A stretch of DNA of 64,000 nucleotides from Odiellus spinosus. Its lineage: Eukaryota; Arthropoda; Arachnida; Opiliones; Phalangiidae. The position numbers were made by a program, and so were the translations under genes. Location of the stretch: NCBI GenBank assembly GCA_963920705.1, contig OY987230.1, positions 1,364,001 to 1,428,000 on the forward strand, given 5' to 3'. The notes below the pieces were generated by a model. That model was not told the origin of the DNA. It searched no databases and worked only from the letters and a program-made list of their open reading frames with translations. Below, piece after piece: positions 1 to 64,000 of this stretch (the first letter of the stretch is position 1; every line of letters begins with the position of its first letter).

Positions 1-48
1 TTTCGAATGACTTTGGTTTTGTCTAAATTGCAAAATTGTGACAAATAT

Positions 49-83
49 AAAATTGGTTAAAATTAAGCAAAAACGCTTAAAAA
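49..83 (+). other. Four A-tracts phased at exactly 10 bp
   Basis: Runs of A begin at 49 (A4), 59 (A4), 69 (A5) and 79 (A5), each 10 bp after the last, within the outer segment. A-tracts in phase with the helix are a known cause of intrinsic DNA curvature. The pattern recurs in essentially every unit, on the other strand in minus copies. One unit (about 18415-18430) has lost 17 bp here. Curvature itself is predicted, not seen. Confidence 0.8.
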
Positions 84-119
84 TCCAAGATTGTTGGATT
101 CAAATGGACACAAAACTTT

Positions 120-215
120 TGAATTTTAAGCGATTTAGACAAAATTAAGACCACTCGAAAGAGCAAATATTGGTCTATCTAAAAAACAAGAGTTTTGGAA
201 AATCCGTCGAAAAAC
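120..215 (+). repeat. Arm subtypes A1 and A2 of the outer segment
   Basis: Two linked versions of this arm recur. A1 has GAGCAAATATTGGTC followed by AAACAAGAG, as here. A2 has GACCAAATTTTGGTC followed by AAACAATAG, for example at 2073-2110. The A2 core is a 15-bp odd palindrome. A1 often follows GATTTTTAAGCG and A2 GAATTTTAAGCG, but mixed units exist (this one, and 541-580), so recombination between the subtypes has occurred. Confidence 0.75.
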
Positions 216-389
216 ATGGAAAATATGGACAATTCAAAAAACATCTAATATCAAAAAGCGAATTTTGAAAATCTGAAATTTGACTATTTTGATATTCTAT
301 GATTTCTTGAATTGGCCATATTTTTCTTGTTTTTCAACGGATTTTTGAAAACTCTTATTATTTAGACTGTCCATTAATTGCTCTTTCGA
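142..389. repeat. Imperfect palindrome spanning the inner segment and flanks
   Basis: The left arm (from ACTCGAAAGAG near 142) and the reverse complement of the right arm (ending near CTCTTTCGAAT at 381-391) align over about 105 positions. I count about 16 mismatches and one single-base gap, so about 84% identity, around a loop of about 30 bp rich in AAATCTGAAATTT. Single strands or transcripts could fold into a long hairpin. The same palindrome occurs in nearly every unit of the window. Confidence 0.8.
199..345. repeat. Inner segment bounded by inverted 17-bp boxes (first example)
   Basis: A copy of the 17-bp box at 199-215 (one change, GTC for GTT) faces its reverse complement GTTTTTCAACGGATTTT at 329-345. 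The 113 bp between them form the inner segment. In this orientation, called I plus here, it starts ATGGAAAATATGG and ends GGCCATATTTTTCTT. In the other orientation it starts AAGAAAAATATGG and ends GTCCATATTTTCCAT. The box is the longest stretch identical in both palindrome arms, and most orientation changes in the array fall at or beside it. Confidence 0.85.
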
Positions 390-728
390 ATGACATTGGT
401 TTTGTCTAAATTGCAAAATTGTGACAAATATAAAATTGGTTAAAATTAAGCAAAAACGCTTAAAAATCCAAGAATATTGGATTCAAATGGACACAAAACT
501 TTTAAATTTTAAGCGATTTAGACAAAATTAAGACCACTCGAAAGACCAAATATTGGTCTATCTAAAAAACAATATTTTTGGAAAATCCGTTGAAAAACAA
601 GAAAAATATGGCCAATTCAAGAAATCATACAATATCAAAATAGTCAAATTTCAGATTTTCAAAATTCGCTTTTTGATATTAGATGTTTTTTGAATTGTCC
701 ATATTTTCCATGTTTTTCAACGGATTTT
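346..728 (+). repeat. Reference satellite unit, box-delimited: outer segment, box, inner segment, inverted box
   Basis: This is one complete unit laid out by its own internal marks. The outer segment O is 346-581 (236 bp). Box AAAATCCGTTGAAAAAC is 582-598. The inner segment I is 599-711 (113 bp). The box in reverse complement is 712-728. The four parts sum to 383 bp. In this unit O is plus while I is reversed relative to the unit before it (I at 216-328). The split is my reading of where sequences change orientation between units and is not a published annotation. Confidence 0.85.
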
Positions 729-1605
729 TGAAAACTCTTATTATTTAAACTGTCCATTAATTGCTCTTTCGAATGACTTTGGTTTTGTCGAAATTGCAAA
801 ATTGTGACAAATATAAAATTGGTTAAAATAAAGCAAAAACGCTTAAAAATCCAAGATTATTGGATTCAAATGGACACAAAACTTTTGATTTTCAAGCGAT
901 TTAGACAAAATTAAGACCACTCGAAAGAGCAAATATTGGTCTATCTAAAAAACAAGAGTTTTGGAAAATCCGTTGAAAAACATGGAAAATATGGACAATT
1001 CAAAAAACATCTAATATCAAAAAGCGAATTTTTAAAACCAAAAATTTGACTATTTTGATATTGTATGATTTCTTGAATTGGCCATATTTTTCTTGTTTTT
1101 CAACGGATTTTCCAAAACTCTTGTTTTTTAGATAGACCAATATTTGCTCTTTCGAGTGGTCTTAATTTTGTCTAAATCGCTTAAAAATCAAATGTTTTGT
1201 GTCCATTTGAATCCAATAATCTTGGATTTTTAAGCGTTTTTGCTTAATTTTAACCAATTTTATATTTGTCGCAATTTTGCAATTTAGACAAAACCAAAGT
1301 CATTCGAAAGAGCATTTAATGGACAGTTTAAATAATAAGAGTTTTCAAAAATCCATTGAAAAACATGGAAAATATGGATAATTCAAAAAACATCTAATAT
1401 CAAAAAGCGAATTTTTAAAATCTGAAATTTGACTATTTTGATATTCTATGATTTCTTGAATTGGCCATATTTTTCTTGTTTTTCAACGGATTTTTGAAAA
1501 CTCTTATTATTCAGACTGTCCATTAATTGCTCTTTCGAATGACTTTGGTTTTGTCTAAATTGCAAAATTGTGACAAATATAAAATTGGTTAAAATTAAGC
1601 AAAAA

Positions 1606-1664
1606 CGCTTAAAAATCCAAGATTATTGGATTCAAATGGACACAAAACTTTTGATTTTTAAGCG
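1606..1664. repeat. 12-bp inverted repeat with nested 7-bp hairpin in the outer segment
   Basis: CGCTTAAAAATC at 1606-1617 is matched by its exact reverse complement GATTTTTAAGCG at 1653-1664, 35 bp apart. Partly overlapping the left arm is a perfect 7-bp hairpin, AATCCAA at 1614-1620, a five-base loop, then TTGGATT at 1626-1632. A common second subtype reads GAATTTTAAGCG in the right arm and so has one mismatch. The outer segment is thus a second, weaker dyad in each unit. Confidence 0.8.
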
Positions 1665-18359: not shown

Positions 18360-18510
18360 GACTGTCCATTAATTGCTCTTTCGAATACCTTTGGTTTTGT
18401 CTAAATTGCAAAATTGTGACAAATTAAGCAAAAACGCTTAAAAATCCAAGATTATTGGATTCAAATGGACACAAAACTTTTGAATTTTAAGCGATTTAGA
18501 CAAAATTAAG

Positions 18511-18533
18511 ACCACTCGAAAAAAAACAATAGT
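18511..18533 (+). other. 21-bp deletion variant (also at 19464 inverted and 22300)
   Basis: CCACTCG is followed directly by eight A and CAATAG. The usual unit has a 21-bp longer sequence containing the small palindrome GACCAAATTTTGGTC. The same joint is on the other strand near 19461-19477 and again at 22300-22320. A-runs at both breakpoints suggest slippage or microhomology. Confidence 0.82.
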
Positions 18534-27375: not shown

Positions 27376-28140
27376 CAGATTTTCAAAATTCGCTTTGATA
27401 TTAGATGTTTTTTGAATTGTCCATATTTTCCATGTTTTTCAACGGATTTTTGAAAACTCTTATTATTTAAACTGTCCATTAATTGCTCTTTCGAATGACT
27501 TTGGTTTTGTCTAAATTGCAAAATTGTGACAAATATAAAATTGGTTAAAATTAAGCAAAAACGCTTAAAAATCCAAGATTATTGGATTCAAATGGACACA
27601 AAACTTTTGAATTTTAAGCGATTTAGACAAAATTAAGACCACTCGAAAGACCAAATTTTGGTCTATCTAAAAAACAATAGTTTTGGTAAATCCGTTGAAA
27701 AACATGGAAAATATGGACAATTCAAAAAACATCTAATATCAAAAAGCGAATTTTTAAAATCTGAAATTTGACTATTTTGATATTGTATGATTTCTTGAAT
27801 TGGCCATATTTTTCTTGCTTTTCAACGGATTTTTGAAAACTCTTATTATTTAGACTGTCCATTAATTGCTCTTTCGAATGACTTTGGTTTTGTCTAAATT
27901 GCAAAATTGTGACAAATATAAAATTGGTTAAAATTAAGCAAAAACGCTTAAAAATCCAAGATTATTGGATTCAAATGGACACAAAACTTTTGATTTTTAA
28001 GCGATTTAGACAAAATTAAGACCACTCGAAAGAGCAAATATTGGTCTATTTAAAAAACAAGAGTTTTGGAAAATCCGTTGAAAAACATGGAAAATATGGT
28101 CAATTCAAAAAACATCTAATATCAAAAAGCGAATTTTTAA

Positions 28141-28165
28141 AATCTGAAATTAATTAATTAATGGA
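28141..28165 (+). other. Deletion joint with AATT repeats (first of three)
   Basis: The inner segment stops at CTGAAATT and runs straight into AATTAATGGACAG of a minus unit, with an extra AATT between. About 285 bp of the expected array is missing, judged from the spacing of the central hairpins. The same joint is at 29801 and 30932, so it arose once and was copied. Confidence 0.8.
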
Positions 28166-30599
28166 CAGTCTAAATAATAAGAGTTTTCAAAAATCCGTTG
28201 AAAAACAAGAAAAATATGGCCAATTCAAGAAATCATACAATATCAAAATAGTCAAATTTCAGATTTTCAAAATTCGCTTTTTGATATTAGATGTTTTTTG
28301 AATTGTCCATATTTTCCATGTTTTTCAACGGATTTTCCAAAACTCTTGTTTTTTAGATAGACCAATATTTGCTCTTTCGAGTGGTCTTAATTTTGTCTAA
28401 ATCGCTTAAAATTCAAAAGTTTTGTGTCCATTTGAATCCAATTTTCTTGGATTTTTAAGCGTTTTTGCTTAATTTTAACCAATTTTATATTTGTCACAAT
28501 TTTGCAATTTAGACAAAACCAAAGTCATTCGAAAGAGCAATTAATGGACAGTCTAAATAATAAGAGTTTTCAAAAATCCGTTGAAAAACAAGAAAAATAT
28601 GGCCAATTCAAGAAATCATACAATATCAAAATAGTCAAATTTCAGATTTTCAAAATTCGCTTTTTGATATTAGATGTTTTTTGAATTGTCCAAATTTTCC
28701 ATGTTTTTCAACGGATTTTCCAAAACTCTTGTTTTTTAGATAGACCAATATTTGCTCTTTCGAGTGGTCTTAATTTTGACTAAATCGCTTAAAAATCAAA
28801 AGTTTTGTGTCCATTTGAATCCAATAATCTTGGATTTTTAAGCGTTTTTGCTTTATTTTAACCAATTTTATATTTGTCACAATTTTGCAATTTAGACAAA
28901 ACCAAAGTCATTCGAAAGAGCAAATATTGGTCTATCTAAAAAACAAGAGTTTTGGAAAATCCGTTGAAAAACATGGAAAATATGGACAATTCAAAAAACA
29001 TCTAATATCAAAAAGCGAATTTTGAAAATCTGAAATTTGACTATTTTGATATTCTATGATTTCTTGAATTGGCCATATTTTTCTTGTTTTTCAACGGATT
29101 TTTGAAAACTCTTATTATTTAGACTGTCCATTAATTGCTCTTTCGAATGACTTTGGTTTTGTCTAAATTGCAAAATTGTGACAAATATAAAATTGGTTAA
29201 AATTTAGCAAAAACGCTTAAAAATCCAAGATTATTGGATTCAAATGGACACAAAACTTTTGAATTTTAAGCGATTTAGACAAAATTAAGACCACTCGAAA
29301 GACCAAATTTTGGTCTATCTAAAAAACAATAGTTTTGGTAAATCCGTTGAAAAACATGGAAAATATGGACAATTCAAAAAACATCTAATATCAAAAAGCG
29401 AATTTTTAAAATCTGAAATTTGACTATTTTGATATTGTATGATTTCTTGAATTGGCCATATTTTTCTTGCTTTTCAACGGATTTTTGAAAACTCTTATTA
29501 TTTAGACTGTCCATTAATTGCTCTTTCGAATGACTTTGGTTTTGTCTAAATTGCAAAATTGTGACAAATATAAAATTGGTTAAAATTAAGGAAAAACGCT
29601 TAAAAATCCAAGATTATTGGATTCAAATGGACACAAAACTTTTGATTTTTAAGCGATTTAGACAAAATTAAGACCACTCGAAAGAGCAAATATTGGTCTA
29701 TTTAAAAAACAAGAGTTTTGGAAAATCCGTTGAAAAACATGGAAAATATGGTCAATTCAAAAAACATCTAATATCAAAAAGCGAATTTTTAAAATCTGAA
29801 ATTAATTAATTAATGGACAGTCTAAATAATAAGAGTTTTCAAAAATCCGTTGAAAAACAAGAAAAATATGGCCAATTCAAGAAATCATACAATATCAAAA
29901 TAGTCAAATTTCAGATTTTCAAAATTCGCTTTTTGATATTAGATGTTTTTTGAATTGTCCATATTTTCCATGTTTTTCAACGGATTTTCCAAAACTCTTG
30001 TTTTTTAGATAGACCAATATTTGCTCTTTCGAGTGGTCTTAATTTTGTCTAAATCGCTTAAAATTCAAAAGTTTTGTGTCCATTTGAATCCAATTTTCTT
30101 GGATTTTTAAGCGTTTTTGCTTAATTTTAACCAATTTTATATTTGTCACAATTTTGCAATTTAGACAAAACCAAAGTCATTCGAAAGAGCAATTAATGGA
30201 CAGTCTAAATAATAAGAGTTTTCAAAAATCCGTTGAAAAACAAGAAAAATATGGCCAATTCAAGAAATCATACAATATCAAAATAGTCAAATTTCAGATT
30301 TTCAAAATTCGCTTTTTGATATTAGATGTTTTTTGAATTGTCCAAATTTTCCATGTTTTTCAACGGATTTTCCAAAACTCTTGTTTTTTAGATAGACCAA
30401 TATTTGCTCTTTCGAGTGGTCTTAATTTTGACTAAATCGCTTAAAAATCAAAAGTTTTGTGTCCATTTGAATCCAATAATCTTGGATTTTTAAGCGTTTT
30501 TGCTTTATTTTAACCAATTTTATATTTGTCACAATTTTGCAATTTAGACAAAACCAAAGTCATTCGAAAGAGCAAATATTGGTCTATCTAAAAAACAAG

Positions 30600-30640: not shown

Positions 30641-31511
30641 TCCATTAATTGCTCTTTCGAATGACTTTGGTTTTGTCTAAATTGCAAAATTGTGACAAAT
30701 ATAAAATTGGTTAAAATTAAGCAAAAACGCTTAAAAATCCAAGATTATTGGATTCAAATGGACACAAAACTTTTGATTTTTAAGCGATTTAGACAAAATT
30801 AAGACCACTCGAAAGAGCAAATATTGGTCTATTTAAAAAACAAGAGTTTTGGAAAATCCGTTGAAAAACATGGAAAATATGGTCAATTCAAAAAACATCT
30901 AATATCAAAAAGCGAATTTTTAAAATCTGAAATTAATTAATTAATGGACAGTCTAAATAATAAGAGTTTTCAAAAATCCGTTGAAAAACAAGAAAAATAT
31001 GGCCAATTCAAGAAATCATACAATATCAAAATAGTCAAATTTCAGATTTTCAAAATTCGCTTTTTGATATTAGATGTTTTTTGAATTGTCCATATTTTCC
31101 ATGTTTTTCAACGGATTTTCCAAAACTCTTGTTTTTTAGATAGACCAATATTTGCTCTTTCGAGTGGTCTTAATTTTGTCTAAATCGCTTAAAATTCAAA
31201 AGTTTTGTGTCCATTTGAATCCAATTTTCTTGGATTTTTAAGCGTTTTTGCTTAATTTTAACCAATTTTATATTTGTCACAATTTTGCAATTTAGACAAA
31301 ACCAAAGTCATTCGAAAGAGCAATTAATGGACAGTCTAAATAATAAGAGTTTTCAAAAATCCGTTGAAAAACAAGAAAAATATGGCCAATTCAAGAAATC
31401 ATACAATATCAAAATAGTCAAATTTCAGATTTTCAAAATTCGCTTTTTGATATTAGATGTTTTTTGAATTGTCCAAATTTTCCATGTTTTTCAACGGATT
31501 TTCCAAAACTC

Positions 31512-35255: not shown

Positions 35256-37300
35256 TTTTCAAAATTCGCTTTTTGATATTAGATGTTTTTTGAATTGTCC
35301 ATATTTTCCATGTTTTTCAACGGATTTTCCAAAACTCTTGTTTTTTAGATAGACCAATATTTGCTCTTTCGATTGGTCTTAATTTTGTCTAAATCGCTTT
35401 AAAATCAAAAGTTTTGTGTCCATTTGAATCCAATAATCTTGGATTTTTAAGCGTTTTTGCTTTATTTTAACCAATTTTATATTTGTCACAATTTTGCTAT
35501 TTAGACAAAACCAAAGTCATTCGAAAGAGCAATTAATGGACAGTCTAAATAATAAGAGTTTTCAAAAATCCGTTGAAAAACAAGAAAAATATGGCCAATT
35601 CAAGAAATCATAGAATATCAAAATAGTCAAATTTCAGATTTTCAAAATTCGCTTTTTGATATTAGATGTTTTTTGAATTGTCCATATTTTCCATGTTTTT
35701 CAACGGATTTTCCAAAACTCTTGTTTTTTAGATAGACCAATATTTGCTCTTTCGAGTGGTCTTAATTTTGTCTAAATCGCTTTAAAATCAAAAGTTTTGT
35801 GTCCATTTGAATCCAATAATCTTGAATTTTTAAGCGTTTTTGCTTAATTTTAACCAATTTTATATTTGTCACAATTTTGCAATTTAGACAAAACCAAAGT
35901 CATTCGAAAGAGCAATTAATGGACAGTCTAAATAATAAGAGTTTTCAAAAATCCGTTCAAAAACAAGAAAAATATGGCCAATTCAAAAAACATCTAATAT
36001 CAAAAAGCGAATTTTTAAAATCTGAAATTTGACTATTTTGATATTGTATGATTTCTTGAATTGGCCATATTTTTCTTGTTTTTCAACGGATTTTCCAAAC
36101 TATTTTTTTTAGATAGACCAAAATTTGGTCTTTCGAGTGGTTTTAATTTTGTCTAAATCGCTTAAAATTCAAAAGTTTTGTGTCCATTTGAATCCAATAA
36201 TCTTGGATTTTTAAGCGTTTTTGCTTAATTTTAACAAATTTTATATTTGTCACAATTTTGCAATTTAGACAAAACGAAAGTCATTCGAAAGAGCAATTAA
36301 TGGAGTCTAAATAATAAGAGTTTTCAAAAATCCGTTGAAAAACAAGAAAAATATGGCCAATTCAAGAAATCATAGAATATCAAAATAGTCAAATTTCAGA
36401 TTTTCAAAATTCGCTTTTTGATATTAGATGTTTTTTGAATTGTCCATATTTTCCATGTTTTTCAACGGATTTTCCAAAGCTCTTGTTTTTTAGATAGACC
36501 AATATTTGCTCTTTCGATTGGTCTTAATTTTGTCTAAATCGCTTTAAAATCAAAAGTTTTGTGTCCATTTGAATCCAATAATCTTGGATTTTTAAGCGTT
36601 TTTGCTTTATTTTAACCAATTTTATATTTGTCACAATTTTGCAATTTAGACAAAACCAAAGTCATTCGAAAGAGCAATTAATGGACAGTCTAAATAATAA
36701 GAGTTTTCAAAAATCCGTTGAAAAACAAGAAAAATATGGCCAATTCAAGAAATCATAGAATATCAAAATAGTCAAATTTCAGATTTTCAAAATTCGCTTT
36801 TTGATATTAGATGTTTTTTGAATTGTCCATATTTTCCATGTTTTTCAACGGATTTTTGAAAACTCTTATTATTTAAACTGTCCATTAATTGCTCTTTCGA
36901 ATGACTTTGGTTTTGTCTAAATTGCAAAATTGTGACAAATATAAAATTGGTTAAAATTAAGCAAAAACGCTTAAAAATCCAAGATTTTTGGATTCAAATG
37001 GACACAAAACTTTTGATTTTTAAGCGATTTAGACAAAATTAAGACCACTCGAAAGAGCAAATATTGGTCTATCTAAAAAAACAAGAGTTTTGGAAAATCC
37101 GTTGAAAAACATGGAAAATATGGGCAATTCAAAAAACATCTAATATCAAAAAGCGAATTTTGAAAATCTGAAATTTGACTATTTTGATATTCTATGATTT
37201 CTTGAATTGGCCATATTTTTCTTGTTTTTCAACGGATTTTTGAAAACTCTTATTATTTAGACTGTCCATTAATTGCTCTTTCGAATGACTTTGGTTTTGT
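33800..37300 (+). repeat. Direct repeat, offset about 3,060 bp, around 33.8-34.2 and 36.9-37.3 kb
   Basis: Both places carry a run of seven A in CTAAAAAAACAAGAG (34013, 37073) and ATATGGGCAATTC (34061, 37121), which are rare elsewhere apart from the 13-unit copy at 42.1 kb. The borders were not traced precisely. Confidence 0.65.
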
Positions 37301-40300
37301 CTAAATTGCAAAATTTTGACAAATATAAAATTGGTTAAAATTAAGCAAAAACGCTTAAAAATCCAAGATTATTGGATTCAAATGGACACAAAACCTTTGA
37401 ATTTTAAGCGATTTAGACAAAATTAAGACCACTCGAATGACCAAATTTTGGTCTATCTAAAAAACAATAGTTTTGGAAAATCCGTTGAAAAATAAGAAAA
37501 ATATGGCCAATTCAAGAAATCATAGAATATCAAAATAGTCAAATTTCAGATTTTCAAAATTCGCTTTTTGATATTAGATGTTTTTTGAATTGTCCATATT
37601 TTCCATGTTTTTCAACGGATTTTTGAAAACTCTTATTATTTAAACTGTCCATTAATTGCTCTTTCGAATGACTTTGGTTTTGTCTAAATTGCAAAATTGT
37701 GACAAATATAAAATTGGTTAAAATTAAGCAAAAACGCTTAAAAATCCAAGATTATTGGATTCAAATGGACACAAAACTTTTGATTTTTAAGCGATTTAGA
37801 CAAAATAAAGACCACTCGAAAGACCAAATATTGGTCTATCTAAAAAACAAGAGTTTTGGAAAATCCGTTGAAAAACATGGAAAATATGGCCAATTCAAAA
37901 AACATCTAATATCAAAAAGCGAATTTTTAAAATCTGAAATTTGACTATTTTGATATTGTATGATTTCTTGAATTGGCCATATTTTTCTTGTTTTTCAACG
38001 GATTTTCCAAAACTATTGTTTTTTAGATAGACCAAAATTTGGTCTTTCGAGTGGTCTAAATTTTGTCTAAATCGCTTAAAATTCAAAAGTTTTGTGTCCA
38101 TTTGAATCCAATAATCTTGGATTTTTAAGCGTTTTTGCTTAATTTTAACCAATTTTATATTTGTCACGTTTTGGCAATTTAGACAAAACCAAAGTCATTC
38201 GAAAGAGCAATTAATGGATAGTCTAAATAATAAGAGTTTTCAAAAATCCGTTGAAAAACAAGAAAAATATGGCCAATTCAAGAAATCATACAATATCAAA
38301 ATAGTCAAATTTCAGATTTTCAAAATTCGCTTTTTGATATTAGATGTTTTTTGAATTGTCCATATTTTCCATGTTTGTCAACGGATTTTCCAAAACTCTT
38401 GTTTTTTAGATAGAAAAATATTTGCTCTTTCGAGTGGTCTTAATTTTGTCTAAATCGCTTAAAAATCAAAAGTTTTGTGTCCATTTGAATCCAATAATCT
38501 TGGATTTTTAAGCCGTTTTGCTTAATTTTAACCAATTTTATATTTGTCACGTTTTGGCAATTTAGACAAAACCAAAGTCATTCGAAAGAGCAATTAATGG
38601 ACAGTCTAAATAATAAGAGTTTTCAAAAATCCGTTGAAAAACAAGAAAAATATGGCCAATTCAAGAAATCATAGAATATCAAAATAGTCAAATTTCAGAT
38701 TTTAAAAATTCGCTTTTTGATATTAGATGTTTTTTGAATTGTCCATATTTTCCATGTTTTTCAACGGATTTTTGAAAACTCTTATTATTTAAACTGTCCA
38801 TTAATTGCTCTTTCGAATGACTTTGGTTTTGTCTAAATTGCAAAATTGTGACAAATATAAAATTGGTTAAAATTAAGCAAAAACGCTTAAAAATCCAAGA
38901 TTATTGGATTCAAATGGACACAAAACTTTTGATTTTTAAGCGATTTAGACAAAATTAAGACCACTCGAAAGACCAAATATTGGTCTATCTAAAAAACAAG
39001 AGTTTTGGAAAATCCTTTGAAAAACATGGAAAATATGGCCAATTCAAAAAACATCTAATATCAAAAAGCGAATTTTTAAAATCTGAAATTTGACTATTTT
39101 GATATTCTATGATTTCTTGAATTGGCCATATTTTTCTTGTTTTTCAACGGATTTTTGAAAACTCTTATTATTTAGACTGTCCATTAATTGCTCTTTCGAA
39201 TGACTTTGGTTTTGTCTAAATTGCAAAATTTTGACAAATATAAAATTGGTTAAAATTAAGCAAAAACGCTTAAAAATCCAAGATTATTGGATTCAAATGG
39301 ACACAAAACTTTTGAATTTTAAGCGATTTAGACAAAATTAAGACCACTCGAAAGACCAAATTTTGGTCTATCTAAAAAACAATAGTTTTGGAAAATCCGT
39401 TGAAAAACAAGAAAAATATGGCCAATTCAAGAAATCATAGAATATCAAAATAGTCAAATTTCAGATTTTCAAAATTCGCTTTTTGATATTAGATGTTTTT
39501 TGAATTGTCCATATTTTCCATGTTTTTCAACGGATTTTTGAAAACTCTTATTATTTAAACTGTCCATTAATTGCTCTTTCGAATGACTTTGGTTTTGTCT
39601 AAATTGCAAAATTGTGACAAATATAAAATTGGTTAAAATTAAGCAAAAACGCTTAAAAATCCAAGATTATTGGATTCAAATGGACACAAAACTTTTGATT
39701 TTTAAGCGATTTAGACAAAATTAAGACCACTCGAAAGAGCAAATATTGGTCTATCTAAAAAACAAGAGTTTTGGAAAATCCTTTGAAAAACATGGAAAAT
39801 ATGGACAATTCAAAAAACATCTAATATCAAAAAGCGAATTTTGAAAATCTGAAATTTGACTATTTTGATATTGTATGATTTCTTGAATTGGCCATATTTT
39901 TCTTGTTTTTCAACGGATTTTTGAAAACTCTTATTATTTAGACTGTCCATTAATTGCTCTTTCGAATGACTTTGGTTTTGTCTAAATTGCAAAATTGTGA
40001 CAAATATAAAATTGGTTAAAATTAAGCAAAAACGCTTAAAAATCCAAGATTATTGGATTCAAATGGACACAAAACTTTTGATTTTAAAGCGATTTAGACA
40101 AAATTAAGACCAATCGAAAGAGCAAATATTGGTCTATCTAAAAAACAAGAGTTTTGGAAAATCCGTTGAAAAACATGGAAAATATGGACAATTCAAAAAA
40201 CATCTAATATCAAAAAGCGAATTTTGAAAATCTGAAATTTGACTATTTTGATATTGTATGATTTCTTGAATTGGCCATATTTTTCTTGTTTTTCAACGGA

Positions 40301-40730
40301 TTTTCCAAAACTATTGTTTTTTAGATAGACCAAAATTTGGTGTTTCGAGTGGTCTTAATTTTGTCTAAATCGCTTAAAATTCAAAAATTTGGGTCCATTT
40401 GAATCCAATAATCTTGGATTTTTAAGCGTTTTTGCTTAATTTTAACCAATTTTATATTTGTCACAATTTTGCAATTTAGACAAAACCAAAGTCATTCGAA
40501 AGAGCAATTAATGGACAGTCTAAATAATAAGAGTTTTCAAAAATCCGTTGAAAAACAAGAAAAATATGGCCAATTCAAGAAATCATAGAATATCAAAATA
40601 GTCAAATTTCAGATTTTCAAAATTCGCTTTTTGATATTAGATGTTTTTTGAATTGTCCATATTTTCCATGTTTTTCAACGGATTTTCCAAAACTCTTGTT
40701 TTTTAGATAGACCAATATTTGCTCTTTCGA
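34756..40730. repeat. Inverted duplication: 34756-35462 against 40024-40730
   Basis: The reverse complement of 34756-35462 matches 40024-40730 with a constant coordinate sum of 75486, so there is no indel over 707 bp. Private markers on opposite strands are CTCGAAACACC (35138) and GGTGTTTCGAG (40339), GGACCCAAATTTTTG and its complement, and CGATTGGTC with CGCTTTAAAATC (35370-35410) against their complements near 40080-40115. The inverted copy covers the border between the two 13-unit copies. Confidence 0.9.
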
Positions 40731-43700
40731 GTGGTCTTAATTTTGTCTAAATCGCTTTAAAATCAAAAGTTTTGTGTCCATTTGAATCCAATAATCTTGA
40801 ATTTTTAAGCGTTTTTGCTTAATTTTAACCAATTTTATATTTGTCACAATTTTGCAATTTAGACAAAACCAAAGTCATTCGAAAGAGCAATTAATGGACA
40901 GTCTAAATAATAAGAGTTTTCAAAAATCCGTTCAAAAACAAGAAAAATATGGCCAATTCAAAAAACATCTAATATCAAAAAGCGAATTTTTAAAATCTGA
41001 AATTTGACTATTTTGATATTGTATGATTTCTTGAATTGGCCATATTTTTCTTGTTTTTCAACGGATTTTCCAAACTATTTTTTTTTAGATAGACCAAAAT
41101 TTGGTCTTTCGAGTGGTTTTAATTTTGTCTAAATCGCTTAAAATTCAAAAGTTTTGTGTCCATTTGAATCCAATAATCTTGGATTTTTAAGCGTTTTTGC
41201 TTAATTTTAACAAATTTTATATTTGTCACAATTTTGCAATTTAGACAAAACGAAAGTCATTCGAAAGAGCAATTAATGGAGTCTAAATAATAAGAGTTTT
41301 CAAAAATCCGTTGAAAAACAAGAAAAATATGGCCAATTCAAGAAATCATAGAATATCAAAATAGTCAAATTTCAGATTTTCAAAATTCGCTTTTTGATAT
41401 TAGATGTTTTTTGAATTGTCCATATTTTCCATGTTTTTCAACGGATTTTCCAAAGCTCTTGTTTTTTAGATAGACCAATATTTGCTCTTTCGATTGGTCT
41501 TAATTTTGTCTAAATCGCTTTAAAATCAAAAGTTTTGTGTCCATTTGAATCCAATAATCTTGGATTTTTAAGCGTTTTTGCTTTATTTTAACCAATTTTA
41601 TATTTGTCACAATTTTGCAATTTAGACAAAACCAAAGTCATTCGAAAGAGCAATTAATGGACAGTCTAAATAATAAGAGTTTTCAAAAATCCGTTGAAAA
41701 ACAAGAAAAATATGGCCAATTCAAGAAATCATAGAATATCAAAATAGTCAAATTTCAGATTTTCAAAATTCGCTTTTTGATATTAGATGTTTTTTGAATT
41801 GTCCATATTTTCCATGTTTTTCAACGGATTTTTGAAAACTCTTATTATTTAAACTGTCCATTAATTGCTCTTTCGAATGACTTTGGTTTTGTCTAAATTG
41901 CAAAATTGTGACAAATATAAAATTGGTTAAAATTAAGCAAAAACGCTTAAAAATCCAAGATTATTGGATTCAAATGGACACAAAACTTTTGATTTTTAAG
42001 CGATTTAGACAAAATTAAGACCACTCGAAAGAGCAAATATTGGTCTATCTAAAAAAACAAGAGTTTTGGAAAATCCGTTGAAAAACATGGAAAATATGGG
42101 CAATTCAAAAAACATCTAATATCAAAAAGCGAATTTTGAAAATCTGAAATTTGACTATTTTGATATTCTATGATTTCTTGAATTGGCCATATTTTTCTTG
42201 TTTTTCAACGGATTTTTGAAAACTCTTATTATTTAGACTGTCCATTAATTGCTCTTTCGAATGACTTTGGTTTTGTCTAAATTGCAAAATTTTGACAAAT
42301 ATAAAATTGGTTAAAATTAAGCAAAAACGCTTAAAAATCCAAGATTATTGGATTCAAATGGACACAAAACCTTTGAATTTTAAGCGATTTAGACAAAATT
42401 AAGACCACTCGAATGACCAAATTTTGGTCTATCTAAAAAACAATAGTTTTGGAAAATCCGTTGAAAAATAAGAAAAATATGGCCAATTCAAGAAATCATA
42501 GAATATCAAAATAGTCAAATTTCAGATTTTCAAAATTCGCTTTTTGATATTAGATGTTTTTTGAATTGTCCATATTTTCCATGTTTTTCAACGGATTTTT
42601 GAAAACTCTTATTATTTAAACTGTCCATTAATTGCTCTTTCGAATGACTTTGGTTTTGTCTAAATTGCAAAATTGTGACAAATATAAAATTGGTTAAAAT
42701 TAAGCAAAAACGCTTAAAAATCCAAGATTATTGGATTCAAATGGACACAAAACTTTTGATTTTTAAGCGATTTAGACAAAATAAAGACCACTCGAAAGAC
42801 CAAATATTGGTCTATCTAAAAAACAAGAGTTTTGGAAAATCCGTTGAAAAACATGGAAAATATGGCCAATTCAAAAAACATCTAATATCAAAAAGCGAAT
42901 TTTTAAAATCTGAAATTTGACTATTTTGATATTGTATGATTTCTTGAATTGGCCATATTTTTCTTGTTTTTCAACGGATTTTCCAAAACTATTGTTTTTT
43001 AGATAGACCAAAATTTGGTCTTTCGAGTGGTCTAAATTTTGTCTAAATCGCTTAAAATTCAAAAGTTTTGTGTCCATTTGAATCCAATAATCTTGGATTT
43101 TTAAGCGTTTTTGCTTAATTTTAACCAATTTTATATTTGTCACGTTTTGGCAATTTAGACAAAACCAAAGTCATTCGAAAGAGCAATTAATGGATAGTCT
43201 AAATAATAAGAGTTTTCAAAAATCCGTTGAAAAACAAGAAAAATATGGCCAATTCAAGAAATCATACAATATCAAAATAGTCAAATTTCAGATTTTCAAA
43301 ATTCGCTTTTTGATATTAGATGTTTTTTGAATTGTCCATATTTTCCATGTTTGTCAACGGATTTTCCAAAACTCTTGTTTTTTAGATAGAAAAATATTTG
43401 CTCTTTCGAGTGGTCTTAATTTTGTCTAAATCGCTTAAAAATCAAAAGTTTTGTGTCCATTTGAATCCAATAATCTTGGATTTTTAAGCCGTTTTGCTTA
43501 ATTTTAACCAATTTTATATTTGTCACGTTTTGGCAATTTAGACAAAACCAAAGTCATTCGAAAGAGCAATTAATGGACAGTCTAAATAATAAGAGTTTTC
43601 AAAAATCCGTTGAAAAACAAGAAAAATATGGCCAATTCAAGAAATCATAGAATATCAAAATAGTCAAATTTCAGATTTTAAAAATTCGCTTTTTGATATT

Positions 43701-45205
43701 AGATGTTTTTTGAATTGTCCATATTTTCCATGTTTTTCAACGGATTTTTGAAAACTCTTATTATTTAAACTGTCCATTAATTGCTCTTTCGAATGACTTT
43801 GGTTTTGTCTAAATTGCAAAATTGTGACAAATATAAAATTGGTTAAAATTAAGCAAAAACGCTTAAAAATCCAAGATTATTGGATTCAAATGGACACAAA
43901 ACTTTTGATTTTTAAGCGATTTAGACAAAATTAAGACCACTCGAAAGACCAAATATTGGTCTATCTAAAAAACAAGAGTTTTGGAAAATCCTTTGAAAAA
44001 CATGGAAAATATGGCCAATTCAAAAAACATCTAATATCAAAAAGCGAATTTTTAAAATCTGAAATTTGACTATTTTGATATTCTATGATTTCTTGAATTG
44101 GCCATATTTTTCTTGTTTTTCAACGGATTTTTGAAAACTCTTATTATTTAGACTGTCCATTAATTGCTCTTTCGAATGACTTTGGTTTTGTCTAAATTGC
44201 AAAATTTTGACAAATATAAAATTGGTTAAAATTAAGCAAAAACGCTTAAAAATCCAAGATTATTGGATTCAAATGGACACAAAACTTTTGAATTTTAAGC
44301 GATTTAGACAAAATTAAGACCACTCGAAAGACCAAATTTTGGTCTATCTAAAAAACAATAGTTTTGGAAAATCCGTTGAAAAACAAGAAAAATATGGCCA
44401 ATTCAAGAAATCATAGAATATCAAAATAGTCAAATTTCAGATTTTCAAAATTCGCTTTTTGATATTAGATGTTTTTTGAATTGTCCATATTTTCCATGTT
44501 TTTCAACGGATTTTTGAAAACTCTTATTATTTAAACTGTCCATTAATTGCTCTTTCGAATGACTTTGGTTTTGTCTAAATTGCAAAATTGTGACAAATAT
44601 AAAATTGGTTAAAATTAAGCAAAAACGCTTAAAAATCCAAGATTATTGGATTCAAATGGACACAAAACTTTTGATTTTTAAGCGATTTAGACAAAATTAA
44701 GACCACTCGAAAGAGCAAATATTGGTCTATCTAAAAAACAAGAGTTTTGGAAAATCCTTTGAAAAACATGGAAAATATGGACAATTCAAAAAACATCTAA
44801 TATCAAAAAGCGAATTTTGAAAATCTGAAATTTGACTATTTTGATATTGTATGATTTCTTGAATTGGCCATATTTTTCTTGTTTTTCAACGGATTTTTGA
44901 AAACTCTTATTATTTAGACTGTCCATTAATTGCTCTTTCGAATGACTTTGGTTTTGTCTAAATTGCAAAATTGTGACAAATATAAAATTGGTTAAAATTA
45001 AGCAAAAACGCTTAAAAATCCAAGATTATTGGATTCAAATGGACACAAAACTTTTGAATTTTAAGTGATTTAGACAAAATTAAGACCACTCGAAAGACCA
45101 AATTTTGGTCTATCTAAAAAACAATAGTTTTCAAAAATCCGTTTAAAAACAAGAAAAATATGGCCAATTCAAGAAATCATACAATATCAAAATAGTCAAA
45201 TTTCA
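35255..45205. repeat. Satellite tile 7: two copies of a 13-unit block
   Basis: Blocks: minus to 36785, plus to 37930, minus to 38700, plus to 40225, minus to 41760, plus to 42910, minus to 43675, plus to 45205. The pattern repeats itself after 40.2 kb because 35498-40080 and about 40473-45056 are copies of each other. Confidence 0.85.
35498..45056 (+). repeat. 13-unit (4,976-bp) tandem duplication
   Basis: 35498-40080 matches about 40473-45056. Shared private variants run the whole length: ATCTTGAATTTTTAAG, CCGTTCAAAAAC, AATGGAGTCTAAAT, CCAAAGCTCTTG, AAAACCTTTGAA, CTCGAATGACC, AATGGATAGTC, CATGTTTGTCAACGG, GATAGAAAAATA, TTAAGCCGTTTTG and AATCCTTTGAAAAAC. I noticed two differences: a T-run length (8 at 36103, 9 at 41078) and AGATTTTTGG against AGATTATTGG. 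This is the largest and one of the youngest events in the window. Confidence 0.92.
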
Positions 45206-48200
45206 GATTTTCAAAATTCGCTTTTTGAAATTAGATGTTTTTTGAATTGTCCATATTTTATATGTTTTTCAACGGATTTTCCAAAGCTCTTGTTTTTTAG
45301 ATAGACCAATATTTGCTCTTTCGAGTGGTCTTAATTTTGTCTAAATCGCTTAAAAATCAAAAGTTTTGTGCCCATTTGAATCCAACAATCTTGGATTTTT
45401 AAGCGTTTTTGCTTTATTTTAACCTATTTTATATTTGTTACAATTTTGCAATTTAGACAAAAACAAAGTCATTCGAAAGAGCAATTAATGGACAGTCTAA
45501 ATAATAAGAGTTTTCAAAAATCCGTTGAAAAACAAGAAAAATATGGCCAATTCAAAAAACATCTAATATCAAAAAGCGAATTTTTAAAATCTGAAATTTG
45601 ACTATTTTGATATTCTATGATTTCTTGAATTGGCCATATTTTTCTTGTTTTTCAACGGATTTTTGAAAACTCTTATTATTTAGACTGTCCATTAATTGCT
45701 CTTTCGAATGACTTTGGTTATGTCTAAATTGCAAAATTGTGACAAATATAAAATTGGTTAAAATAAAGCAAAAACGCTTAAAAATCCAAGATTATTGGAT
45801 TCAAATGGACACAAAGCTTTTGATTTTTAAGCGATTTAGACAAAATTAAGACCACTCGAAAGAGCAAATATTGGTCTATCTAAAAAACAAGAGTTTTGGA
45901 AAATCCGTTGAAAAACATGGAAAATATGGACAATTCAAAAAACATCTAATATCAAAAAGCGAATTTTGAAAATCTGAAATTTGACTATTTTGATATTGTA
46001 TGATTTCTTGAATTGGCCATATTTTTCTTGTTTTTCAACGGATTTTTGAAAACTCTTGTTTTTTAGATAGACCAAAATTTGGTCTTTCGAGTGGTCTTAA
46101 TTTTGTCTAAATCGCTTAAAATTCAAAAGTTTTGTGTCCATTTGAATCCAATAATCTTGGATTTTTAAGCGTTTTTGCTTAATTTTAACCAATTTTAGAT
46201 TTGTCACAATTTTGCAATTTAGACAAAACCAAAGTCATTCGAAAGAGCAATTAATGGACAGTCTAAATAATAAGAGTTTTCAAAAATCCGTTGAAAAACA
46301 AGAAAAAAATGGCCAATTCAAGAAATCATAGAATATCAAAATAGTCAAATTTCAGATTTTCAAAATTCGCTTTTTGATATTAGATGTTTTTTGAATTGTC
46401 CATATTTTCCATGTTTTTCAACGGATTTTCCAAAACTCTTGTTTTTTAGATAGACCAATATTTGCTCTTTCGAGTGGTCTTAATTTTGTCTAAATCGCTT
46501 AAAAATCAAAAGTTTTGTGTCCATTTGAATCCAATAATCTTGGATTTTTAAGCGTTTTTGCTTAATTTTAACCAATTTTATATTTGTCACATTTTTGCAA
46601 TTTAGACAAAACCAAAGTCATTCGAAAGAGCAATTAATGGACAGTTTAAATAATAAGAGTTTTCAAAAATCCGTTGAAAAACATGGAAAATATGGACAAT
46701 TCAAAAAACATCTAATATCAAAAAGCGAATTTTGAAAATCTGAAATTTGACTATTTTGATATTGTATGATTTCTTGAATTGGCCATATTTTTCTTGTTTT
46801 TCAACGGATTTTCGAAATTTATTGTTTTTTAGATAGACCAAAATTTGGTCTTTCGAGTGGTCTTAATTTTGTCTAAATCGCTTAAAATTCAAAAGTTTTG
46901 GGTCCATTTGAATCCAATAATCTTGGATTTTTAAGCGTTTTTGCTTAATTTTAACCAATTTTATATTTGTCACAATTTTGCAATTTAGACAAAACCAAAG
47001 TCATTCGAAAGAGCAATTAATGGACAGTTTAAATAATAAGAGTTTTCAAAAATCCGTTGAAAAACATGGAAAATATGGACAATTCAAAAAACATCTAATA
47101 TCAAAAAGCGAATTTTGGAAATCTGAAATTTGACTATTTTGATATTCTATGATTTCTTGAATTGGCCATATTTTTCTTGTTTTTCAACGGATTTTTGAAA
47201 ACTCTTATTATTTAGACTGTCCATTAATTGCTCTTTCGAATGACTTTGGTTTTGTCTAAATTGCAAAATTGTGACAAATATAAAATTGGTTAAAATTAAG
47301 CAAAAACGCTTAAAAATCCAAGATTATTGGATTCAAATGGACACAAAACTTTTGAATTTTAAGCGATTTAGACAAAATTAAGACCACTCGAAAGAGCAAA
47401 TATTGGTCTATCTAAAAAACAAGAGTTTTGGAAAATCCGTTGAAAAACATGGAAAATATGGACAATTCAAAAAACATCTAATATCAAAAAGCGAATTTTT
47501 AAAATCTGAAATTTGACTATTTTGATATTGTATGATTTCTTGAATTGGCCATAATTTTCTTGTTTTTCAACGGATTTTTGAAAACTCTTATTATTTAGAC
47601 TGTCCATTAATTGCTCTTTCGAATGACTTTGGTTATGTCTAAATTGCAAAATTGTGACAAATATAAAATTGGTTAAAATAAAGCAAAAACGCTTAAAAAT
47701 CCAAGATTATTGGATTCAAATGGACACAAAGCTTTTGATTTTTAAGCGATTTAGACAAAATTAAGACCACTCGAAAGAGCAAATATTGGTCTATCTAAAA
47801 AACAAGAGTTTTGGAAAATCCGTTGAAAAACATGGAAAATATGGACAATTCAAAAAACATCTAATATCAAAAAGCGAATTTTGAAAATCTGAAATTTGAC
47901 TATTTTGATATTGTATGATTTCTTGAATTGGCCATATTTTTCTTGTTTTTCAACGGATTTTTGAAAACTCTTGTTTTTTAGATAGACCAAAATTTGGTCT
48001 TTCGAGTGGTCTTAATTTTGTCTAAATCGCTTAAAATTCAAAAGTTTTGTGTCCATTTGAATCCAATAATCTTGGATTTTTAAGCGTTTTTGCTTAATTT
48101 TAACCAATTTTAGATTTGTCACAATTTTGCAATTTAGACAAAACCAAAGTCATTCGAAAGAGCAATTAATGGACAGTCTAAATAATAAGAGTTTTCAAAA

Positions 48201-56879: not shown

Positions 56880-57300
56880 TGATTTTTAAGCTTTTTTGCT
56901 TTATTTTAACCAATTTTATATTTGTCACAATTTTGCAATTTAGACAAAACCAAAGTCATTCGAAAGAGCAATTAATGGACAGTCTAAATAATAAGAGTTT
57001 TCAAAAATCCGTTGAAAAACAAGAAAAATATGGCCAATTCAAGAAATCATACAATATCAAAATAGTCAAATTTCAGATTTTCAAAATTCGCTTTTTGATA
57101 TTAGATGTTTTTTGAATTGTCCATATTTTCCATGTTTTTCAACGGATTTTCCAAAACTCTTGTTTTTTAGATAGACCAATATTTGCTCTTTCGAGTGGTC
57201 TTAATTTTGTCTAAATCGCTCAAAAATCAAAAGTTTTGTGTCCATTTGAATCCAATAATCTTGGATTTTTAAGCTTTTTTGCTTTATTTTAACCAATTTT
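56880..57300 (+). repeat. Single-unit duplication marked by AAGCTTTTTTGC
   Basis: The rare AAGCTTTTTTGC (instead of AAGCGTTTTTGC) occurs at 56888 and 57271, exactly 383 bp apart, in adjacent minus units. This indicates a simple one-unit duplication or a conversion tract. Confidence 0.65.
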
Positions 57301-60194: not shown

Positions 60195-60235
60195 TGTTTT
60201 TCAACCAATTTTATATTTGTCACGTTTTGGCAATT
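60195..60235 (-). other. 150-bp deletion joint (first of three)
   Basis: TTTTTCAA is followed by CCAATTTTATATTTG, so the box runs into the far side of the outer segment. In intact neighbours the two sides are 150 bp apart (59821 to 59971), with AAC shared at both breakpoints. The deletion removes the hairpin and the 12-bp inverted repeat. The same joint is at 61583 and 62582. Confidence 0.85.
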
Positions 60236-60649
60236 TAGACAAAACCAAAGTCATTCGAAAGAGCAATTAATGGACAGTCTAAATAATAAGAGTTTTCAAA
60301 AATCCGTTGAAAAACAAGAAAAATATGGCCAATTCAAGAAATCATAGAATATCAAAATAGTCAAATTTCAGATTTTCAAAATTCGCTTTTTGATATTAGA
60401 TGTTTTTTGAATTGTCCATATTTTCCATGTTTTTCAACGGATTTTCCAAAACTCTTGTTTTTTAGATAGACCAAAATTTGGTCTTTCGAGTGGTCTTAAT
60501 TTTGTCTAAATCGCTTAAAAATCAAAAGTTTTGTGTCCATTTGAATCCAATAATCTTGGATTTTTAAGCGTTTTTGCTTTATTTTAACCAATTTTATATT
60601 TGTCACAATTTTGCAATTTAGACAAAACCAAAGTCATTCGAAAGAGCAA

Positions 60650-63600
60650 TTAATGGACAGTCTAAATAATAAGAGTTTTCAAAAATCCGTTCAAAAACAA
60701 GAAAAATATGGCCAATTCAAAAAACATCTAATATCAAAAAGCGAATTTTTAAAATCTGAAATTTGACTATTTTGATATTGTATGATTTCTTGAATTGGCC
60801 ATATTTTTCTTGTTTTTCAACGGATTTTCCAAAACTAATGTTTTTTAAATATACCAAAATTTGGTCTTTCGAGTGGTCTTATTTTTGTCTAAATCGCTTA
60901 AAATTCAAAAGTTTTGTGTCCATTTGAATCCAATAATCTTGGATTTTTAAGCGTTTTTGCTTAATTTTAACCAATTTTATATTTGTCACAATTTTGCAAT
61001 TTAGACAAAACCAAAGTCATTCGAAAGAGCAATTAATGGAGAGTCTAAATAATAAGAGTTTTCAAAAATCCGTTGAAAAACAAGAAAAATATGGCCAATT
61101 CAAGAAATCATAGAATATCAAAATAGTCAAATTTCAGATTTTCAAAATTCGCTTTTTGATATTAGATGTTTTTTGAATTGTCCATATTTTCCATGTTTTT
61201 CAACGGATTTTCCAAAACTCTTGTTTTTTAGATAGACCAATATTTGCTCTTTCGAGTGGTCTTAATTTTGTCTAAATCGCTTAAAAATCAAAAGTTTTGT
61301 GTCCATTTGAATCCAATAATCTTGGATTTTTAAGCGTTTTTGCTTAATTTTAACCAATTTTATATTTGTCACAATTTTGCAATTTAGACAAAACCAAAGT
61401 CATTCGAAAGAGCAATTAATGGACAGTCTAAATAATAAGAGTTTTCAAAAATCCGTTGAAAAACAAGAAAAATATGGCCAATTCAAAAAACATCTAATAT
61501 CAAAAAGCGAATTTTTAAAATCTGAAATTTGACTATTTTGATATTGTATGATTTCTTGAATTGGCCATATTTTTCTTGTTTTTCAACCAATTTTATATTT
61601 GTCACGTTTTGGCAATTTAGACAAAACCAAAGTCATTCGAAAGAGCAATTAATGGACAGTCTAAATAATAAGAGTTTTCAAAAATCCGTTGAAAAACAAG
61701 AAAAATATGGCCAATTCAAGAAATCATAGAATATCAAAATAGTCAAATTTCAGATTTTCAAAATTCGCTTTTTGATATTAGATGTTTTTTGAATTGTCCA
61801 TATTTTCCATGTTTTTCAACGGATTTTCCAAAACTCTTGTTTTTTAGATAGACCAATATTTGCTCTTTCGAGTGGTCTTAATTTTGTCTAAATCGCTTAA
61901 AAATCAAAAGTTTTGTGTCCATTTGAATCCAATATTCTTGGATTTTTAAGCGTTTTTGCTTTATTTTAACCAATTTTATATTTGTCACAATTTTGCAATT
62001 TAGACAAAACCAAAGTCATTCGAAAGAGCAATTAATGGACAGTCTAAATAATAAGAGTTTTCAAAAATTCGTTGAAAAACAAGAAAAATATGGCCAATTC
62101 AAGAAATCATAGAATATCAAAATAGTCAAATTTCAGATTTTCAAAATTCGCTTTTTGATATTAGATGTTTTTTGAATTGTCCATATTTTCTATGTTTTTC
62201 AACGGATTTTCCAAAACTCTTGTTTTTTAGATAGACCAATATTTGTTCTTTCGAGTGGTCTTAATTTTGTCTAAATCTCTTAAAAATCAAAAGTTTTGTG
62301 TCCATTTGAATCCAATAATCTTGGATTTTTAAGCGTTTTTGCTTAATTTTAACCAATTTTATATTTGTCACAATTTTGCAATTTAGACAAAACCAAAGTC
62401 ATTCGAAAGAGCAATTAATGGACAGTCTAAATAATAAGAGTTTTCAAAAATCCGTTCAAAAACAAGAAAAATATGGCCAATTCAAAAAACATCTAATATC
62501 AAAAAGCGAATTTTTAAAATCTGAAATTTGACTATTTTGATATTGTATGATTTCTTGAATTGGCCATATTTTTCTTGTTTTTCAACCAATTTTATATTTG
62601 TCACGTTTTGGCAATTTAGACAAAACCAAAGTCATTCGAAAGAGCAATTAATGGACAGTCTAAATAATAAGAGTTTTCAAAAATCCGTTGAAAAACAAGA
62701 AAAATATGGCCAATTCAAGAAATCATAGAATATCAAAATAGTCAAATTTCAGATTTTCAAAATTCGCTTTTTGATATTAGATGTTTTTTGAATTGTCCAT
62801 ATTTTCCATGTTTTTCAACGGATTTTCCAAAACTCTTGTTTTTTAGATAGACCAATATTTGCTCTTTCGAAAGGTCTTAATTTTGTCTAAATCGCTTAAA
62901 AATCAAAAGTTTTGTGTCCATTTGAATCCAATAATCTTGGATTTTTAAGCGTTTTTGCTTTATTTTAACCAATTTTATATTTGTCACAATTTTGCAATTT
63001 AGACAAAACCAAAGTCATTCGAAAGAGCAATTAATGGACAGTCTAAATAATAAGAGTTTTCAAAAATTCGTTGAAAAACAAGAAAAATATGGCCAATTCA
63101 AGAAATCATAGAATATCAAAATAGTCAAATTTCAGATTTTCAAAATTCGCTTTTTGATATTAGATGTTTTTTGAATTGTCCATATTTTCCATGTTTTTCA
63201 ACGGATTTTCCAAAACTCTTGTTTTTTAGATAGACCAATATTTGTTCTTTCGAGTGGTCTTAATTTTGTCTAAATCTCTTAAAAATCAAAAGTTTTGTGT
63301 CCATTTGAATCCAATAATCTTGGATTTTTAAGCGTTTTTGCTTAATTATAACCAATTTTATATTTGTCACAATTTTGCAATTTAGACAAAACCAAAGTCA
63401 TTCGAAAGAGCAATTAATGGACAGTCTAAATAATAAGAGTTTTCAAAAATCCGTTGAAAAACAAGAAAAATATGGCCAATTCAAAAAACATCTAATATCA
63501 AAAAGCGAATTTTTAAAATCTGAAATTTGACTATTTTGATATTGTATGATTTCTTGAATTGGCCATATTTTTCTTGTTTTTCAACGGATTTTCCAAAACT

Positions 63601-64000
63601 ATTGTTTTTTAAATATACCAAAATTTGGTCTTTCTAGTGGTCTTATTTTTGTCTAAATCGCTTAAAATTCAAAAGTTTTGTGTCCATTTGAATCCAATAA
63701 TCTTGGATTTTTAAGCGTTTTTGCTTAATTTTAACCAATTTTATATTTGTCACAATTTTGCAATTTAGACAAAACCAAAGTCATTCGAAAGAGCAATTAA
63801 TGGAGAGTCTAAATAATAAGAGTTTTCAAAAATCCGTTGAAAAACAAGAAAAATATGGCCAATTCAAGAAATCATAGAATATCAAAATAGTCAAATTTCA
63901 GATTTTCAAAATTCGCTTTTTGATATTAGATGTTTTTTGAATTGTCCATATTTTCCATGTTTTTCAACGGATTTTCCAAAACTCTTGTTTTTTAGATAGA
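60650..64000 (+). repeat. Direct repeat, offset 2,764 bp, running off the window end
   Basis: 60650-61236 matches 63414-64000, sharing TTTTTTAAATATACC (60841, 63605), GGTCTTATTTTTGTC and AATGGAGAGTC. About three differences. The offset is twice 1,382 (4 x 383 minus 150), so a block with one deletion unit was probably copied more than once. Confidence 0.75.
61279..63584 (+). repeat. Tandem duplication, offset 999 bp, carrying the 150-bp deletion
   Basis: 61279-62585 matches 62278-63584. Markers are the deletion joint (61583, 62582), CAAAAATTCGTTG (62062, 63061), TATTTGTTCTTTCG and AAATCTCTTAAAAATC. The offset is 3 x 383 minus 150. A few differences occur (TTCTATG against TTCCATG; CGAGTGG against CGAAAGG). 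Confidence 0.82.

Follow-up and report, generated by a model that had tools for sequence, protein, structure and literature searches.

Satellite DNAs that change direction inside their arrays are represented by TmSat1 and TmSat2 of Tribolium madens, macro-dyad satellites that are putatively (peri)centromeric (PMC13081366). The portions of that paper used here describe the inversion sites as conserved classes, with 2,044 INV_1a copies that are 98.9% alike and 3,486 INV_1b copies that are 98.2% alike, record the authors' supposition that TmSat2 was rearranged via ectopic recombination between similar subunits, and state that such symmetries were so far documented only in Tribolium (PMC13081366). 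A second related system, again as given in portions of its description, is Tetris of Drosophila virilis, a non-autonomous foldback element whose arm tandem repeats are shared with TIR-220 satellite arrays (PMC4079207). The present analysis concerns a satellite array with a 383-bp lattice in Odiellus spinosus, which occupies the whole of a 64,000-nucleotide stretch (C6:1364001-1428000, hereafter the window, C6 being contig OY987230.1) of a 443-Mb genome in 286 contigs. Each unit of this array holds two segments, an outer module (O) and an inner module (I), that occur in both orientations, and the most probable history of the mixture, to which we give a probability of about 0.72, is that a few founder inversions spread genome-wide and were reshuffled by exchange inside the modules.

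The window array resembles the satellites of T. madens in that orientation changes within the array at conserved inversion sites having variants of their own, and it is likewise a macro-dyad satellite in the sense of the portions of that paper cited above. It differs in grain: the inverted subarrays of T. madens measure several kilobases, with mostly two per array (PMC13081366, same portions), whereas the window contains 133 orientation runs with a mean of 2.46 modules, and two parts of one monomer act here as separate units on a fixed lattice. Within the limits of these portions, the window array shows on a finer scale what the conserved inversion sites of T. madens show (PMC13081366). In the limited collection of literature searched, we found neither an earlier description of the 383-bp unit nor a case closer than T. 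madens and Tetris. Alpha-satellite higher-order repeats, in which monomers run head-to-tail over long distances and orientation is unmixed at the monomer scale, share with this array the duplication of many-monomer blocks in near-identical copies. Beside the window, about 264 kb of sequence were sampled by place, and a 184-kb stretch of C6 was used for larger counts.

Satellite unit and module orientation

A box scan with module scoring resolves the array (1-64000) into a lattice of reverse-complement box (17 bp), O (236 bp), box (17 bp) and I (113 bp), in which 383-bp units number 157 in the first 60 kb, the array continuing to the window end. It is long and tandem, as satellite DNA should be, and the 184-kb stretch of C6 consists of it entirely except for one insert of about 2.1 kb. 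The satellite is non-coding, and its unit is made of two box-bounded imperfect palindromes, with a self-reverse-complement identity of 69% for O and 78% for I; folded with its own boxes and compared with shuffles, one copy of each gave z = -7.4 for O and z = -10.5 for I. The box reads AAAATCCGTTGAAAAAC or its reverse complement and has 339 matches with at most 4 mismatches in the window, 293 of them exact. Its strand alternates along the array, same-strand neighbours occurring in only 5 of 338 pairs, one of which is the product of a false 4-mismatch match inside the O module at 729-964. Neighbouring boxes are most often spaced at 130 (154 pairs) or 253 (141 pairs).

With boxes taken at up to 3 mismatches, 160 O and 167 I modules were scored for orientation and 10 intervals were set aside, namely six deleted O modules and four intervals between same-strand boxes. 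There are 76 plus and 84 minus O modules, and 72 plus and 95 minus I modules. No call is ambiguous: in its own orientation O has a mean identity to the consensus of 0.979 (minimum 0.945) and I of 0.983 (minimum 0.938), the maximum in the opposite orientation is 0.725 for O and 0.814 for I, and the orientation scores never overlap. A sequence-only reading of the window had already reported that both segments occur both ways while the box spacing stays intact, and scoring bears this out: the two orientations are near-equal in number, the 383-bp lattice is kept whichever way the modules point, and the three modules it had named are as it described them. The first of these is the plus I module at 216-328, between plus O modules. 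To its left lies a box with one substitution (199-215, plus strand), a concordant junction of O-right with I-left (R-L), and to its right an inverted box (329-345, minus strand), a concordant junction of O-left with I-right (L-R). Beyond the plus O module at 346-581, an imperfect palindrome, comes a box that forms a discordant O-right/I-right (R-R) junction (582-598, plus strand), then the second named example, the minus I module at 599-711, flanked by plus O modules, and an inverted box (712-728, minus strand) where O-left and I-left meet in a discordant (L-L) junction. The third example, the plus I module at 46683-46795, stands between two minus O modules (46430-46665 and 46813-47048).

Neighbouring O and I modules agree in orientation at 194 of 317 junctions and disagree at 123, and the head-to-tail order that is usual, if optional, in satellites is absent from the window, where the tandem lattice holds. 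The modules had been thought to take their orientations independently. They are indeed close to independent, but not fully so, agreement exceeding that of independent modules (Fisher p = 0.006 for O to I and 0.011 for I to O; 0.012 and 0.008 when second copies of duplicated blocks are dropped). The left and right junction types of the same window module are near-independent (Fisher p = 0.10 for O, 0.30 for I). A plus run always closes with an R-R junction and a minus run with an L-L junction, so that the two discordant types have to take turns and their numbers can differ by one at most; the window has 61 R-R and 62 L-L. Mean differences are about equal within and between orientations (7.6 and 7.7 for O; 2.9 and 3.1 for I), which indicates that plus and minus modules have formed one pool over longer times. 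The mixed-orientation arrangement is real and unusual.

Descent of the discordant junctions

Discordant junctions carry haplotypes of their own. In the window, CTT at O sites 200, 206 and 227 accompanies 52 of the 61 R-R junctions against 6 of the 97 R-L junctions (Fisher p = 2e-25), and the enrichment persists with duplicated blocks dropped (42/50 against 5/78, p = 4e-20) and with each O sequence used once as well (34/42 against 5/71, p = 5e-16). Over the 184-kb stretch of C6, ACTT at O sites 160, 200, 206 and 227 is found at 104 of 128 R-R and 13 of 335 R-L junctions. Outside that stretch, in samples L005, L031, L032 and L033 (L002 is excluded, as it lies within L032), CTT marks 17 of 21 R-R junctions against 1 of 58 R-L junctions; the sole R-R junction of L033 is without it. 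L-L junctions in the window have A at site 19 (19A) in 33 of 62 cases against 2 of 97 for L-R. They sort into class A (19A; 32/62), class B (18/62) and others (12/62), class B having an I tip of the other arm that changes to the proper arm within or after a CAATTCAA patch.

Repeated turning of modules at the boxes, as proposed in the sequence-only reading, would be expected to erase such private haplotypes; their presence points instead to common descent of most discordant junctions. Association of O sites with the junction type falls off with distance, r2 being 0.69 at site 227, 0.64 at 206, 0.60 at 200, 0.29 at 160 and 0.04 at 101. Linkage within O is of similar strength (r2 of 0.69 between sites 200 and 227 and of 0.74 between 206 and 227), and because the junction association decays at about this internal rate, the flanks appear to be exchanged across the box no more often than inside O.

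Duplicated blocks and inversion of stretches

Two copies of a recent duplicate of mixed orientation, at 35582-39904 and 40557-44880, contain 23 module pairs with no orientation mismatch and two base differences overall. Across the 184-kb stretch, 16 direct duplicated blocks of mixed orientation show disagreement in 2 of 254 module pairs, both involving one I module at a block edge; the blocks overlap and the pairs are therefore not all independent. With so few discordant pairs, duplication must be more frequent than flipping. No inverted duplicate block of mixed orientation was found in the 184 kb, where the four inverted blocks listed are all one-way and uninformative. Two adjoining copies of a 6.4-kb, 33-module block (C6:1465092-1471455 and 1471603-1477966) show no module difference and are a very recent duplication, or possibly an assembly duplication.

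Read along the strand, the R-R junctions of the window run from O to I in 33 cases and from I to O in 28, with CTT in 31 and 21 respectively; in the 184 kb the numbers are 63 and 66, with CTT in 59 and 49. As direct exchange is unable to turn a junction, the presence of the founder R-R junction on both strands calls for inversions that leave junctions intact, and what is required at minimum is one inversion of an R-R-bearing stretch, mixed in later. A scheme of one founder inversion followed by direct unequal exchange only was considered and is ruled out by the same observation. The earlier proposal that exchange at inverted boundaries flips single modules is thus right in that inversions must have occurred; single-module, ongoing flipping finds no such footing.

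These events were also simulated, with 400 runs per setting, four founder lengths, and inversion present or absent, high discordance being taken as at least 0.2. In the absence of inversion, 9, 8, 7 and 12 of 400 runs reached high discordance and the R-R strand fraction was 1.0 in all 36, whereas with junction-preserving inversion its mean lay between 0.44 and 0.52 and about half of the O and I modules were plus. In a separate set of runs, none disrupted the lattice. The simulation speaks to sufficiency, not to rates.

Mixed and one-way arrays in the genome

Not every array of the family is of mixed orientation. Two stretches of C107 (60 kb) contain 147 O and 156 I modules, all plus, with nine deleted O modules unscored, and 20 kb of C65 contain 52 O and 51 I modules, all minus. 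A head-to-tail array, the arrangement that speaks against independently turning modules, occurs in C107 and C65 but not at the window locus. Right of the window, C6:1433591-1469923 forms a single run of 190 minus modules, and mixed sequence resumes further right. Samples from C6:1-10000, C112 and C157 are also mixed, and a 10-kb sample of C261 is one-way save for a short reversed stretch near its start.

Junctions were counted genome-wide with exact 41-letter words, which see the module tips and the box only. They gave 33,896 R-L, 45,533 L-R, 1,311 R-R and 6,906 L-L matches, in total 87,646 places, an abundance in keeping with satellite DNA. The four words cover 903 of the 1,528 boxes in the samples, which scales very roughly to 74,000 units or 28 Mb. 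The founder R-R word, missed by the other R-R word, has 8,076 matches, and the L-L words have 5,801 (class A) and 2,698 (class B), most class B junctions also matching the L-R word. Summed, there are 9,387 R-R and 9,604 L-L junctions, so that genome-wide about 1 in 5 exact junctions is discordant, where the window has 123 of 317. A strand bias of C6 junctions, the matches listed being mostly plus but apparently ordered with the forward ones of a contig ahead, was not upheld, since C6:1-10000 read directly has both strands.

C6 carries the satellite from its first kilobases, with an exact junction word up to 2.99 Mb among the matches listed, and has telomere repeats at its other end, a placement from which the array is probably pericentromeric. 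Among the matches listed, TCAGG repeats, of a type that would fit tenebrionid-like beetles, lie near the ends of several large contigs.

Proposed history and the evidence against it

Exact junction counts show the head-to-tail order O-I-O-I in the majority of the family. The R-R and L-L junctions, whose common descent is shown by their private linked variants, probably arose from one main inversion, or from very few, whose ends lay within the box or in its flanks. These discordant junctions have been amplified and have spread through the genome, as their thousands of matches show. Direct unequal exchange in modules of the same orientation duplicates and deletes blocks, as the duplicated blocks and the decay of linkage in O show, and exchange in oppositely oriented modules would invert stretches with their junctions untouched, which would account for the founder junction on both strands. 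Short conversion beside the box also takes place, without carrying modules along. Since exchange would take place in register inside the modules, the lattice would be kept while orientation becomes nearly random, and no site-specific flipping is required.

Several observations weigh against this history. Nine of the 61 window R-R junctions are without CTT, the single R-R junction of the C261 sample has the haplotype TGAG, without any founder allele, and 1,311 matches genome-wide are to the non-founder R-R word; some of these junctions may be independent events or later box exchanges. Twelve of the 62 window L-L junctions fall outside both main classes. The founder words read only tips and box, and a few of their matches may be converted tips. 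The L-L classes are unevenly spread over the strands, the class-B tip occurring 13 times from O to I and 4 times from I to O, and class A 8 and 24 times. Run lengths in the window are not geometric, with an excess at 3-4 modules and two long runs, and in C6:1304001-1433000 the junction types on the two sides of O fall slightly short of independence (p = 0.016), doubly discordant modules being too few. High discordance was reached in only 5 to 12 of 400 simulated runs per setting, and on the simulated model drift alone is a possible, not a probable, path to it. Finally, short exchanges at the box edge are common. In O, the two bases beside the box are homogenised in 22 of 160 modules; in I, the tip markers, which lie at most about 14 bp from the box, are homogenised in 24-32 of 167, a count that drops to 1 of 167 for the two site pairs that follow inward. 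Between O sites 234 and 227, which are seven bases apart, there is almost no linkage (r2 = 0.03, D' = 0.33). This is the strongest trace of exchange at the place where the sequence-only reading expected it, and we read it as short conversion that leaves module orientation unchanged: bases touching the box are exchanged, but the modules are not turned there. Partial flips through exchange within the arms of one module were looked for at 41 diagnostic site pairs in the 160 O and 167 I modules, and no swapped pair was found.

The box-edge signal is also what best serves the idea of a flip-flop satellite, in which the inverted boxes on either side of a module recombine again and again, each time turning the module at fixed length. 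Modules are flanked by inverted boxes, orientation numbers are near-equal, conversion of the tip markers reaches 32 of 167 I modules, and linkage is low at the box edge. We nevertheless consider such a satellite unlikely, given the private haplotypes on discordant junctions, a linkage across the box (r2 = 0.69) that is no weaker than inside O, the lack of any internal flip among the 254 duplicated module pairs, and the C107 and C65 arrays, which have the same boxes and are entirely one-way. The flip-flop mechanism is mostly not supported, and founder inversion with in-register exchange is the better reading.

A dispersed foldback transposon

Satellite modules also occur outside the arrays, in a foldback transposon. 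Its exact end is found at 27 places genome-wide, 26 of which form 13 facing pairs. Six of the 13 paired copies were read (L029:596-5457, L030:194-6002, L034:487-6007, L035:220-4563, L036:280-3871 and L037:247-5767); they are 3.6-5.8 kb long and share a 227-bp centre interval, on either side of which the arms carry satellite modules in opposite orientation. The first-listed inverted match between the arms measures 872-1,933 bp at 98.2-99.3% identity. Identical 9-bp flanks, taken as target duplications, border four of the six copies, with none at the exact edge for the C4 copy and one C16 copy. Long terminal inverted repeats with target-site duplication are the marks of a foldback transposon, and in the cited portions of its description Tetris makes duplications of 8-10 bp (PMC4079207). 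The consensus sequences of array and foldback modules differ at 7 to 13 of 236 sites in O and at 1 to 3 of 113 in I. The transposase domain PF10551 (MULE) has 72 matches in the genome, none of which has been connected with the foldback family. In L029 and L030, the copies examined for them, tandem repeats of about 150 bp lie in the arms. A short hairpin-like insert lies within an O module at L029:2340-2460, and O intervals of 359-361 bp in five of the six copies may hold an insert of this type, L029 being the only sequence inspected.

As these elements hold inverted satellite monomers in this very genome, their arms might have seeded the scrambled orientation directly. We regard this as highly unlikely. 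The exact centre word has 13 places, 12 in paired elements and one on C13 at 6.1 kb from an unpaired end, diverged copies not being covered by the search, and the founder junctions of both discordant types are made at boxes, in which they differ from the foldback centre. None of the exact end words (27 places) or centre words (13 places) lies on C6, and the window array is not part of such an element. Here, unlike in Tetris as far as it is described in the cited portions, the exact centre and end words occur only at dispersed loci.

Improbable alternatives: assembly error and site-specific inversion

Satellite arrays are hard to assemble, and the difference-free 33-module repeat could be such an error; reads joined in the wrong orientation might in principle have produced the mixture. 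Mis-joins should scatter the breakpoints, however, and the orientation changes fall at boxes (except for the four odd same-strand intervals in the window), with few recurrent haplotypes and thousands of times, and mixed stretches recur at the start of C6 and on C112 and C157, which makes an artefact very improbable. Bacterial Hin and yeast FLP sites are site-specific inversion systems, and the array has in common with them that segments bounded by inverted, strongly conserved short sites (293 of 339 box matches exact) occur both ways; a recombinase acting on the box is nonetheless hardly credible, as the evidence against recurrent flipping applies to it equally, the one-way arrays have the same boxes, and linkage of the module bodies across the site, which flank exchange in such systems erases, is retained here.

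Orientation as a possible recombining character

For the founder history that we prefer, a further step would be that orientation acts as a recombining allele, with four junction types from few founder inversions reassorting while the palindrome lattice, and not strand order, is kept. This is possible but doubtful. If it is true, and if a kinetochore or heterochromatin factor reads the palindromic lattice, orientation could drift freely, and the array would exemplify very cleanly selection on structure, not sequence, in a centromeric satellite. If true, a foldback transposon that carries satellite units would also give the satellite a way to move. Orientation junctions are natural markers through which unequal exchange, inversion and conversion can be traced in a single assembly, in the way that population genetics uses linked variants; they also make selection versus drift of inverted satellite structure testable. 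The monomers within the foldback copies add to the tie between foldback elements and satellites that Tetris represents in the portions cited (PMC4079207).

Irregular intervals and inserts

A deleted O module of 86 bp lies at 60213-60298, with others of equal length at 61595-61680 and 62594-62679. Odd intervals of 103 bp between same-strand boxes are found at 28087-28189, 29739-29841 and 30870-30972; in the two inspected (all but 29739-29841), a truncated I and a reversed, truncated O adjoin at a point that is not a box. The insert of about 2.1 kb in the 184-kb stretch (C6:1357113-1359352, L014) sits within an I module, has repeats with a 14-bp period and shows no match to the satellite unit. 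At the start of the contig (C6:1-10000, L031), a deleted O of 193-194 bp occurs four times in 10 kb, which is a sign of a local higher-order repeat.

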